Shown here: positions 11,416-36,389 of the stretch, piece after piece
How positions within the stretch are numbered: position 1 is the first letter of the stretch
Layout of the letters: each line of letters starts with the position of its first letter
From: Sporichthyaceae bacterium
GTDB taxonomy: Bacteria; Actinomycetota; Actinomycetes; Sporichthyales; Sporichthyaceae
DNA: 38,628 nt
NCBI GenBank assembly: GCA_036493475.1
Contig: DASXPS010000012.1
Location: 1 to 38,628, forward strand
Direction of reading: 5' to 3'
Made by a program: the position numbers and the translations under genes
Notes under the pieces: model-generated
Databases searched by the model: none
Told to the model about the DNA's origin: nothing
What the model saw: the letters and a program-made list of their open reading frames with translations, nothing else

Positions 11416-11479
11416 GACGCATGTCATACGTCTGGACCACCCGGAACCCCGTGCACGTGGCCGAGGCGGATGACGTCAG

Positions 11480-12346
11480 CTAAGGCAACTCGGCCAGCCG
11501 CGGCACGATCTCCTTGCCGACCCGCTCGGTGAACGAGAGGAGGTCTCCGACCGGCACCAGGTCCACCACCGCGACGCCCAACTTCGCCAGCTCGCCCGCC
11601 TGCGCCAGGAACCCGTCCACGTCATCCAACGCGTTGCCGCGGAACAACACCGTGGGCGTGATCGTCGAGTAGTCCCGGCCCAGCGTCTCGCAGTGCCCGC
11701 GCAGGATGTCCAGCTTCGGGGCCACCTCGGCCGGCCCACCCATCAGGTTGCAGGAGTCCGCGTACTGGGCCACGATCCGCAGCGTCTTGCGCTCCCCGCC
11801 ACCGGCCACCAGGATCGGCGGGCGCGGCCGGGACACCGGCACGGGCGAGCACAGGGTCTCGGCCAGTTGGTAGTGCTTGCCGGCGTACGGCCCGTTGTCC
11901 TCGCTCCACATCTGCAGGCAGATCTGCAGCGTCTCCTCGAGCATCTCGAAGCGCTGCGCCACCGGCGGGAACGCCACCCCCAACCCCTGATGCTCGCGTT
12001 CGAACCAGGCCGCCCCGATGCCCAGCGCCGCCCGGCCACCGGAGAGCACGTCCAGCGTGGTCACCGTCTTGCACAGGATGCCCGGGTGACGGTACGTCAC
12101 CCCGGTGCACAGCAGCTGCAGGGTCACCGTCGAGGTGTGCGCGGCCAGGAACGCCAGGCCGGTGTAGCCCTCCAGCATCGGCTCGGTGGCCTTGCCCACC
12201 GGTGGGATCTGGAAGAAGTGGTCCATCAGCGAGACGTAGCCGACGCCTGCGTCCTCCGCGGCCTCGCCGAAGCGGGCCAGCGTGGGTGCGATCGAGGCCG
12301 GTTGGCCGGGAAAGCTGAACGAGGCGACGTGCAGGGCGACCTTCAT
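11480..12346 (-). CDS. LLM-class F420-dependent oxidoreductase
   Basis: 288 residues with the bacterial luciferase-like TIM barrel. Typical blocks are EAAEDAGVGYVSLMDHFFQI, TGVTYRHPGILCKTVTTLDV, LSGGRAALGIGAAWFEREHQGLG and PPILVAGGGERKTLRIVAQY. These enzymes transfer hydride using coenzyme F420 (some use FMN). The substrate is unknown. The ATG at 12346 overlaps the stop of the PH-domain gene (ATGA), so the pair is coupled. The stop TAG lies inside the arm of an imperfect palindrome (11419-11480) that is shared with the end of another gene at 36317. Confidence 0.9.
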   Translation of the reverse strand: MKVALHVASFSFPGQPASIAPTLARFGEAAEDAGVGYVSLMDHFFQIPPVGKATEPMLEGYTGLAFLAAHTSTVTLQLLCTGVTYRHPGILCKTVTTLDVLSGGRAALGIGAAWFEREHQGLGVAFPPVAQRFEMLEETLQICLQMWSEDNGPYAGKHYQLAETLCSPVPVSRPRPPILVAGGGERKTLRIVAQYADSCNLMGGPAEVAPKLDILRGHCETLGRDYSTITPTVLFRGNALDDVDGFLAQAGELAKLGVAVVDLVPVGDLLSFTERVGKEIVPRLAELP

Positions 12347-21829: not shown

Positions 21830-21917
21830 GGTGGCGTGTCCGAGCGGCCGAAGGAGCGCGCCTCGAAAGCGCGTGATGTGCAAGCATCCGAGGGTTCAAA
21901 TCCCTCCGCCACCGCCA
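21830..21917 (+). tRNA. tRNA-Ser (anticodon CGA)
   Basis: Acceptor arms GGTGGCG (21830-21836) and CGCCACC (21907-21913) pair fully, discriminator is G, and CCA is encoded (21915-21917). The anticodon stem-loop GCGCGCCTCGAAAGCGCGT presents CGA. A long variable arm (GATGTGCAAGCATC) and the T-loop GGGTTCAAATCCC are present. The 88-base length and variable arm are those of a class II serine tRNA reading UCG. Confidence 0.96.
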
Positions 21918-22001
21918 ACACGAGCGGCGCGGTTCCCCGGGGGCCCGCCGCTCGTCGCCGTTCCCGCCCCGCCCTCACGCCCCCGCCCTCACGCCCCCCA
22001 G

Positions 22002-22067
22002 GAACACAAACGCAACTGGTGGGGCGTTTCCGTGCCGACGATCGCCTCCCGAGTCACGTTTGTGTTC
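22002..22067. repeat. Palindromic element, left copy (flanks DUF559 gene)
   Basis: 66 bp. The arms GAACACAAACG (22002-22012) and CGTTTGTGTTC (22057-22067) pair perfectly. Just inside, the ends differ (CAACT on the left, AGTCA on the right), giving the element a direction. A second 66-bp copy lies in the opposite orientation at 23017-23082. Confidence 0.8.
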
Positions 22068-22162
22068 TGAGGTGGCGCGCTTCGCCGCCACCCGCGCCGA
22101 GGCTTATCCACAGGCGCGCGGTTCGGCCGCGCGCCGCGGCCCCATCGGGGAGGCTCCGCCCC

Positions 22163-23002
22163 GTGGATCCGGTGGAGGCGCTTCTGCGGTGCGGCGGTGC
22201 GGCGCGCGTGTCGCGGTTGAACGCGATGGGCGTGCGCCGGCGAACACTGCGCGGGGCCTGCGACCGGGGCGACGTCGTGGCGATCGGCGGGGGCGGGTTC
22301 GCTGTCCCGGATGCCGACCCGCGGTTGGCGGCGGCCGTGACATTGGGCGGGGTGCTCTCCCACGGCTCCGCCGCCGACTGGCACGGCTTCGAGTTGTGGC
22401 GACCGCTCAACGTGCTTCACGTGACGGTTCCGGCCGGCACCACCGTCACGACAGCCGGAGTGTGGGTGCACCGGGGGCGGCTCAAGCCCGCGGATGTGGA
22501 TCCGTTCACGCCGGTAACGCGCCCCCTGCGCACGCTGCTGGACTGCGCCCGTCGGATGCCCTTCTGCGATGCCGTCGTCGTCATCGACAGCGCGCTGCGC
22601 AAGCGTGCCGTCCATGACGCGTCGCTGCGCGCCGCAGCCGAGGCGGCCGGCGGCCCTGGCTCGAGCCGGTTACGCCGAGCCGTGCGGCACGCAGATGCGT
22701 TGGCCGGCTCCGGGATGGAGACCGTGCTTCGACTGCTGATCGACCTGCTCGACGCGGAGGTGCAGAGCCAGGTCCTCATCCCGGGCGTCGGCAAGGTCGA
22801 CCTCCTCATCAACGGCTGGTTGGTCATCGAGGCCGATGGCTTCGAGTTTCACTCCGATCGGGAGGCGTATCGCAACGACCGCCGTCGCGACAACGCTGTT
22901 TCCGAGCGCGGTTACGTCCGGCTGCGGTTCTCGTGGGAGGACCTCAGGTCACGTCGGCCCGAGGTGTTGCGGCAGATCCAGCGCGTGCTGGCGCTGCGGT
23001 AG
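22163..23002 (+). CDS. DUF559 (VSR-like) endonuclease-domain protein with AbiEi-like N-terminus
   Basis: 279 residues. The N-terminus (about 1-100) resembles the winged-helix part of AbiEi-type antitoxin-like proteins: ALLRCGGAARVSRLNAMGVR, then GDVVAIGGGGFAVPDADPRL and SHGSAADWHGFELWRPLNVL. The C-terminus is a DUF559/very-short-patch-repair-like PD-(D/E)xK nuclease fold: GKVDLLINGWLVIEADGFEF, HSDREAYRNDRRRDNAV, GYVRLRFSWEDL, with acidic residues placed as a metal site (VDLLI ... EADG). GTG 22163 has GGGGAGG about nine bases upstream. The gene is bracketed by inverted copies of a palindrome. DNA cleavage activity is inferred; no AbiEii-type toxin partner is adjacent. Confidence 0.8.
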   Translation: MDPVEALLRCGGAARVSRLNAMGVRRRTLRGACDRGDVVAIGGGGFAVPDADPRLAAAVTLGGVLSHGSAADWHGFELWRPLNVLHVTVPAGTTVTTAGVWVHRGRLKPADVDPFTPVTRPLRTLLDCARRMPFCDAVVVIDSALRKRAVHDASLRAAAEAAGGPGSSRLRRAVRHADALAGSGMETVLRLLIDLLDAEVQSQVLIPGVGKVDLLINGWLVIEADGFEFHSDREAYRNDRRRDNAVSERGYVRLRFSWEDLRSRRPEVLRQIQRVLALR

Positions 23003-23016
23003 ACCGCGCCCTCCCA

Positions 23017-23082
23017 GAACACAAACGTGACTCAGGTGGCGTCGCGCTGCCGGAAATGACCCCACGAGTTGCGTTTGTGATC
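23017..23082. repeat. Palindromic element, right copy (inverted relative to left)
   Basis: 66 bp. The arms GAACACAAACG (23017-23027) and CGTTTGTGATC (23072-23082) pair with one mismatch. Its reverse complement matches the left copy closely at both ends (21 of the first 23 bases, and the last 17 bases GAGTCACGTTTGTGTTC), while the centre has diverged. It starts 14 bp after the endonuclease stop. Confidence 0.8.
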
Positions 23083-23180
23083 CCAGGGGGCGCGGCCTCG
23101 GGGCTCCCGGGTGGCACCTAAGCGGACTCCAACGTTCGGCCCATTGGGCTCGATCCGTCCGTCCGATCCGCATGTGTCCG

Positions 23181-25050: not shown

Positions 25051-25110
25051 CCGAAAGCGCAGAACCGCACCCGAAATCGCTTGATTCGGCGTGCGGTTCT
25101 GCGCTTTCGG
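25051..25110. terminator. Long perfect hairpin between convergent genes
   Basis: CCGAAAGCGCAGAACCGCAC (25051-25070) pairs perfectly with 25091-25110 (20 bp). Inside, CCGAA (25071-25075) pairs with TTCGG (25085-25089). It sits between the ABC permease (plus) and the MFS-TetR gene (minus), so it can end transcription from both sides. It is longer than needed for that purpose and may be a dispersed palindromic repeat. Confidence 0.75.
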
Positions 25111-35170: not shown

Positions 35171-36321
35171 CCGTCACCCGGCCACCCGAGCCGATCGGCG
35201 TCGACGCCATGCTCGACGACCGCGACGTGCGCATCGTGGTGTGTTGCGGATCCGGTGGCGTCGGCAAGACCACCACCGCGGCGGCGCTCGCGGTGCGCGC
35301 GGCCGAGCGCGGCCGGCAGGTCGTCGTACTCACCATCGACCCAGCCCGCCGGCTCGCGCAGTCCATGGGCCTGACCGAGTTGGACAACACCCCGCGGCCG
35401 GTGGCCGGTCTGGACACCTCGGCGGGCGGTTCGCTCGAGGCGATGATGCTGGACATGAAGCGCACGTTCGACGAGATCGTGCAGACCCATTCCGAACCCG
35501 GCCGGGCCGAGGCGATCCTGGCCAACCCGTTCTACCAATCGCTGTCCTCGTCCATGGCCGGCACCCAGGAGTACATGGCGATGGAGAAGCTCGGCCAGTT
35601 GCGCCGGGCGGGCACCTGGGACCTGATCGTGGTGGACACCCCGCCGAGTCGTTCCGCGCTGGACTTCCTGGATGCGCCGAAGCGGCTGGGGTCGTTCCTC
35701 GACGGCCGGGTCATCAAGATCCTGGCCGCCCCGGCCAAGGCCGGTGGCCGCGCCTACCTGAAGATCGTCTCCGTCGGGTTCAACATGATGGCAGGCGTGG
35801 TCACCAAGGTGCTGGGTGCGCAACTGCTCAAGGACGTCGCCGCGTTCGTCGCCGCGCTGGAGACGATGTTCGGCGGGTTCCGGGAACGGGCCGACGCGAC
35901 GTTCCGACTGCTGAAGAACCCGGAGACGCGGTTTCTGGTGGTGGCCGCCCCGGAGCCGGACGCGCTGCGCGAGGCGTCCTACTTCGTGAAGCGACTGTCC
36001 GAGGAGCGCATGCCGCTGGCGGGCCTGGTGCTCAACCGGGTGCACTCCTCCGGTGCCGCCGCGCTGTCGCCCGGCCGGGCGCTGGCCGCGGCCGAGGACC
36101 TGGACGCCGCCGGCGACACCCCCGACCTCGCCTTGACCGCCGCCCTGCTCCGGCTGCACGCCGAACGCATGGCCACCATCGCCCGCGAGGAGAGCCTCAC
36201 CGAGCGGTTCTGCGCCGCGCATCCCACCATCCCCATCGGTGAGGTCGCCGCCCAGCCCGCTGACGTCCACGACCTCGACGGCCTACGCATCGTCGGCGCG
36301 GAGCTGGCAAAACGTCGCTGA
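35167..36321 (+). CDS. ArsA/Get3-like ATPase, second of pair
   Basis: 384 residues. The P-loop is CCGSGGVGKTTTAAALAV (core 28-36), then the LTIDPARRLAQSMGL block typical of ArsA/Get3 (switch-like DPA). LIVVDTPPSRSALDFLDAP matches the Walker B/switch region. A long helical middle (AYLKIVSVGFNMMAGVVTKV) may form a hydrophobic groove, and FLVVAAPEPDALREASYFVK follows. Counterpart of Rv3680. Coupled to the first ATPase. The stop TGA lies inside the left arm of a palindrome at 36317-36380. Confidence 0.92.
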   Translation: MTVTRPPEPIGVDAMLDDRDVRIVVCCGSGGVGKTTTAAALAVRAAERGRQVVVLTIDPARRLAQSMGLTELDNTPRPVAGLDTSAGGSLEAMMLDMKRTFDEIVQTHSEPGRAEAILANPFYQSLSSSMAGTQEYMAMEKLGQLRRAGTWDLIVVDTPPSRSALDFLDAPKRLGSFLDGRVIKILAAPAKAGGRAYLKIVSVGFNMMAGVVTKVLGAQLLKDVAAFVAALETMFGGFRERADATFRLLKNPETRFLVVAAPEPDALREASYFVKRLSEERMPLAGLVLNRVHSSGAAALSPGRALAAAEDLDAAGDTPDLALTAALLRLHAERMATIAREESLTERFCAAHPTIPIGEVAAQPADVHDLDGLRIVGAELAKRR

Positions 36322-36380
36322 CGTCATCCGCCTCGACCACCATCCGCGCCGGTTTCGTGGCGCAGGCGGATGACATCAGC
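36317..36380 (+). terminator. Palindrome at the end of the ATPase pair
   Basis: GCTGACGTCATCCGCCT (36317-36333) pairs with AGGCGGATGACATCAGC (36364-36380), with one mismatch in 17, around a 30-base loop. The left arm contains the gene's stop codon. The same 17 bases, in the same position relative to the stop, occur at the end of the LLM oxidoreductase gene (11464-11480). Confidence 0.6.
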
Positions 36381-36389
36381 GTTGGCCAC

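Follow-up and report, generated by a model that had tools for sequence, protein, structure and literature searches.

Many chromosomal nucleases of one PD-(D/E)xK family in actinobacteria are bracketed by palindromes, and the explanation that seems best, and a probable one, is that each such nuclease is paired with a palindrome of its own which it recognises and processes, the pair working like a REP sequence and its RAYT enzyme. The association of nuclease and palindrome is firm; that the nuclease processes the palindrome and makes it mobile is what we infer. A fuller version, in which REPIN-like self-spreading palindromes are run by a DnaA-controlled, Vsr-like PD-(D/E)xK nuclease independently of HuH enzymes, with several pairs in most genomes, is more tentative and falls a little short of probable. 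The findings suggest a new kind of enzyme-and-repeat partnership.

The window nuclease and its two palindromes

The window, the whole 38,628-nucleotide stretch analysed, holds at 22163-23002 on the forward strand a gene with a GTG start for a protein of 279 aa, the N-terminal part of which is AbiEi-like and the C-terminal part a PD-(D/E)xK domain of the DUF559/MTES_1575 type. The earlier note had read the protein as such a fusion, and profile searches bear it out: the Pfam DUF559 model matches above its cut-off (E 7e-6, 26.3 bits against 20.6), MTES_1575 below its own (E 2e-6, 27.9 bits against 38.2), and the PADLOC AbiEi models match the N-terminal part (E 2e-12). Residues E186, D213, E223 and D225, of catalytic type (E, D, ExD), are invariant across an 18-member alignment of the family, and with both a Pfam match and the PD-(D/E)xK catalytic residues the protein belongs to the DUF559/MTES_1575 group. 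An AlphaFold model made from the one sequence gave a pLDDT of 43 and was left out of the evidence. The gene lies between an upstream deaminase gene and a downstream ABC transporter ATPase gene, with a tRNA also nearby, and no partner toxin, methylase or defence gene adjoins it.

Two imperfect palindromes, each of 66 bp, bracket the gene in the layout that the earlier note had described. The upstream copy (22002-22067, forward strand), identified from sequence and the genome arm search, has its arms at 22002-22017 (GAACACAAACGCAACT) and, facing the gene, at 22052-22067 (AGTCACGTTTGTGTTC); the downstream copy (23017-23082, reverse strand), identified from sequence and its reverse-complement match, begins 14 bp past the stop codon that ends at 23002 and has its gene-facing arm at 23017-23032 (GAACACAAACGTGACT) and its outer arm at 23067-23082 (AGTTGCGTTTGTGATC). 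The left copy matches the reverse complement of the right at 50 of the 66 positions, and so the two are in opposite orientation, with CAACT ends outward and TGACT ends toward the gene in both, the terminal 16-17 bp almost identical and the centres diverged. Each palindrome taken alone is not above chance, long-loop inverted repeats scoring at least 10 numbering 14 in the window and 7-11 in shuffles. The arm common to both sides of the nuclease is not chance: GAACACAAACGYRACT, allowing at most one mismatch, has just four occurrences in the 4.27-Mb genome, the four bracketing arms. Both copies, taken as single strands, fold better than shuffled sequences (z -3.9 for the left, z -3.3 for the right), and in both the hairpin stem carries a paired TG/TG (CA/CA on the other strand). 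A T:G stem mismatch as a general Vsr-type signal was considered and dropped, the asymmetric position being of G/C type in the palindromes of genome G333.

The window palindrome is not dispersed: in its genome it is confined to the two copies that bracket the gene. The search for further copies that the earlier note had proposed found no identical palindrome elsewhere, while relatives bear equivalent palindromes of different sequence; because the exact palindrome is absent elsewhere, it was the layout and not the sequence that was compared across the family.

Bracketing across the nuclease family

Homologues were gathered from actinobacterial genomes and oriented, 126 of them with complete flanks. 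The family is present in 213 of 297 sampled genomes of the class, and one genome may hold several differently specific paralogues. A long-loop inverted repeat (score at least 11) stands within 260 bp upstream of 48% of the 126 homologues (2.4% of control windows) and within 170 bp downstream of 27% (1.6%); a stricter comparison (score at least 12) gives 51/126 for the homologues and 1/112 for control genes whose upstream region is intergenic. Under the scoring used, roughly half the homologues have no palindrome. The upstream arm reappears just past the gene's own stop codon in 82% of the 61 genes that have an upstream palindrome, as compared with 2% at random other loci, and takes three forms there: the gene-facing arm alone in direct orientation (24 cases), a full palindrome as in the window (19) and an inverted arm alone (6). 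Palindrome sizes range over about 40-105 bp with the arms some 20-70 bp apart at variable spacing, and the sequence varies between nucleases, arm similarity increasing with protein similarity (Mantel r 0.33, p 0.001). Palindrome bracketing is therefore a property of the whole protein family and not a local oddity.

No known RNA was found by Rfam in representative loci. The family gene occurs in 4 of 72,556 plasmid records and 2 of 50,697 phage records, and no relative was found in the viral contigs searched; this near-absence from plasmids and phages fits a resident gene. At L007/L044, L045 and L207 orthologous nucleases are apparently decaying, being truncated or frame-broken, and the adjoining palindromes are still well formed.

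Between palindrome and gene there lies a further shared feature, which in the window is the DnaA-box-like motif TTATCCACAG at 22104-22113 on the forward strand, with its TCCACA core lying 56 bp ahead of the start codon. TCCACA or TGTGGA is found within 150 bp upstream at 114 of the 126 loci (about 90%) against 5% of control windows, and the longer TCCACAG at 95/126 against 2/112 control genes. The consensus is g-Y-Y-R-TCCACA-G-G (YYRTCCACAGG), in either orientation, some 40-60 bp before the start codon across the family and at near-fixed distance, mostly -59 to -56 when forward and -49 to -47 when reversed. High-affinity DnaA boxes are TTGTCCACA in Streptomyces coelicolor and Mycobacterium tuberculosis, and TTATCCACA in E. 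coli (PMC4285127). By its sequence the motif is a putative binding site for DnaA upstream of the nuclease genes. Transcription of the family genes may be leaderless, to judge from a weak -10-like signal at -12 to -7.

The pairing can be followed through a genus at one orthologous site, downstream of a glycosyltransferase-like gene (so named from reading and not from a family search) and readable in 26 species. Fourteen of the 26 have the nuclease there, laid out as inverted arm, loop, arm, box, gene and arm, and 12 do not, five of which keep orphan palindromes at the same place. The 13 usable nucleases of the site all lie to one side of a branch with support 81/80, and their two main subclades differ in arm type. 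This is taken here as vertical inheritance with arm and enzyme co-diverging, the support for a single origin being modest.

Dispersed palindromes and their cognate genes

Two orphan palindrome types of the glycosyltransferase-like site were searched for genome-wide. The GGGTGGCGGCA...TGCCGCCACCC palindrome is mostly of 55 bp; it has 24 matches, spread over 17 places, in genome G374, stands at 17 places in G333 and is less frequent in other species; the reversed control pattern gave 0 matches genome-wide. One copy in G333 precedes a distant DUF559-type gene (P0002), assigned to the family via the family HMM and without a Pfam match at the threshold used. Orthologues of P0002 in seven genomes are all bracketed by palindromes of the GGGTGGCGGCA type. 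The usual order is two palindromes upstream, TCCACA boxes, the nuclease gene and further palindromes immediately past its stop codon; G406 and G321 have a variant form of the arms, and for the G272 copies that lie behind the nuclease domain there was no clear stop codon against which to place them. Arm subtype agrees within a genome, the dispersed copies being mostly of CGACA type in G374 and of ATCGCA type in G333, in each case that of the genome's own nuclease flanks. In G347 the palindrome is present and the cognate gene was not detected.

The second type, the 40-bp GTCATACGAA...TTCGTATGAC palindrome, has 16 copies in G376 and 13 in G357. One copy in G357 precedes a DUF559 gene in the same layout, and at least five palindromes follow the gene as an array; a cognate gene was looked for in G376 and not found. 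Near-identical GTCATACGAA palindromes stand in tandem at L206 (G376:C2:328947-329134), as three units with a 74-bp period, and at L269 as six units, which suggests recent local amplification.

In the window's own genome a second nuclease (L033) has its own palindrome, GGGCAAGGTTGAAA, repeated downstream, and a third (L034, contig C204) is bracketed by palindromes of the GCTGACGTCATCCGC type. With at most one mismatch the GCTGACGTCATCCGC arm occurs eight times in 536 kb sampled, about 13% of the genome, against 0-2 for permuted arms, and in that fraction at least five copies are orphans: two in the window and those at L315, L318 and L325. The window orphans lie directly behind genes. One, of 66 bp at 36316-36381 on the forward strand, has an arm identical to the upstream flank of L034, no adjoining nuclease, and an ordinary-looking terminator hairpin after it; the other, at 11416-11480 on the reverse strand (borders approximate), has an exact arm at 11466-11480 and lies between convergent genes. 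The window thus contains, besides its bracketed nuclease, orphan palindromes that belong to a different one. A further strong palindrome lies between convergent genes at 25051-25110 (span 60), with perfect 20-bp arms (CGAAAGCGCAGAACCGCAC...), and a second copy in L325 at 12567 makes this a dispersed family; no cognate nuclease was identified for it.

No Y1_Tnp gene (PF01797) was detected in the 11 genomes tested by a search that did pick up controls holding known RAYT or IS200 genes; with a Y1 transposase absent from all 11, it is unlikely that the dispersed palindromes are carried by RAYTs. The likeness to REP sequences and RAYTs that the earlier note had drawn from the window is thus strengthened by the family-wide bracketing, the co-divergence and the dispersed cognate palindromes, together with this absence.

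Proposed mode of action, rival readings and known systems

Arm recognition, cutting and spreading are here proposed by analogy with RAYTs. The AbiEi-like N-terminal part would recognise the arm sequence, and the nuclease domain would nick or cleave the palindrome, probably as a hairpin in single-stranded DNA during replication; the cutting could let the palindrome be copied or moved, and would keep the bracketing copies in place. Expression would probably be coupled to replication through the DnaA box in a leaderless promoter.

The main rival to processing takes the palindromes for operators: the AbiEi-like domain would repress its own gene and act on other genes at the dispersed copies, and the nuclease would have a separate role. 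AbiEi and Rv2827c do bind inverted repeats in their own promoters (PMC7319586), and the upstream palindrome stands just before the promoter region, but the AbiEi and Rv2827c repeats are of 23 bp, set 3 or 13 bp apart inside the promoter (PMC7319586), whereas the widely and variably spaced arms of the nuclease family lie upstream of it. The return of the arm after the stop codon, the tandem arrays downstream and the position of the window's orphan copies behind genes, not in promoters, are also hard to reconcile with simple operators, and this reading is unlikely. The system shares with AbiEi and Rv2827c the model match of its N-terminal part and the inverted repeats upstream of the gene; it differs in its fused nuclease domain and in repeats that are far apart and also downstream, and, with no AbiEii-type toxin beside it, it is not an AbiE toxin-antitoxin pair.

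Could the nuclease instead attack DNA as part of a defence or addiction module, the palindromes being self marks, decoys or control sites and the dispersed copies protecting or regulating? The PADLOC matches and the several differently specific paralogues per genome, which resemble diversified defence genes, would suit this, but the genes next to the window nuclease are for an ABC transporter, a deaminase and a tRNA, with no toxin, methylase or defence gene among them, and a palindrome confined to one site, like that of the window, could scarcely serve to mark a genome; a module of this sort is improbable. That the palindromes are independent dispersed repeats, due to another agent or structural, among which nuclease genes merely tend to lie, would account for orphans with no nearby nuclease and for the G347 copies without a cognate gene, but is very improbable given arms that are nuclease-specific and on both sides, arm subtypes that at one orthologous site track the phylogeny of the nucleases, a bracketed nuclease for each of three unrelated palindrome families, and the lack of a Y1_Tnp gene in the tested genomes.

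A nuclease that processes its own palindrome would resemble the REP/RAYT system (REPtron) closely. RAYTs are chromosomal, each a distinct single copy beside its own REPIN type (PMC3116915), and they process folded single-stranded REPs (PMC8266576). Shared with them are the single-copy, distinct chromosomal enzymes flanked by their own palindrome type, cognate palindromes that are dispersed, mostly intergenic, and single as well as tandem, and the co-divergence of enzyme and palindrome (PMC3116915, PMC8266576); dispersed cognate palindromes were found for three nucleases and not for the window's own. In contrast the RAYT is a HuH/Y1 enzyme and the window protein an unrelated PD-(D/E)xK nuclease of DUF559/MTES_1575 type, and the palindromes here are longer and go with a promoter motif that resembles a DnaA box. 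The nuclease-palindrome system cannot be classed as REP/RAYT, since the enzyme that defines that class is absent from the genomes tested for it. Nor is it an autonomous insertion sequence with near-identical multiple copies, the closest paralogue in the window's genome being 56% identical and the arms confined to a single locus.

Vsr acts on T:G mismatches and works with the Dcm methylase. The window nuclease shares with Vsr, DUF559 and MTES_1575 proteins the PD-(D/E)xK fold family, by Pfam, and the conserved E, D and ExD, and differs from Vsr in being tied to palindromes, with no adjacent methylase in the window. In the literature searched, with subscription papers and preprints outside its scope, no paper was found that connects palindromic repeats with DUF559 or Vsr-like genes. 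The palindromes now offer a candidate substrate for the family's DUF559-type genes, which are common in the class; partnerships of the REP/RAYT kind could, it seems, arise with an unrelated nuclease, and this is also a likely source of the orphan palindromes that lie between genes in high-GC genomes. Through the DnaA-box-like motif a link to replication is open to direct experiment.

A last point concerns the tRNA-Ser(CGA) gene, which ends at 21917, 84 bp before the left palindrome copy. The earlier note had remarked on this position, which is correct and probably not meaningful, since relatives have no such element at that tRNA. Its suggested comparison of empty sites found neither gene nor palindrome there in relatives, but the neighbourhood is rearranged in them and yielded no clean empty site with a target duplication. 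At two loci of the sister genus (L176, L177) the region just downstream of tRNA-Ser(CGA) resembles, by reading, an integrase gene, and in that genus the end of the tRNA may be an integration site for other elements.
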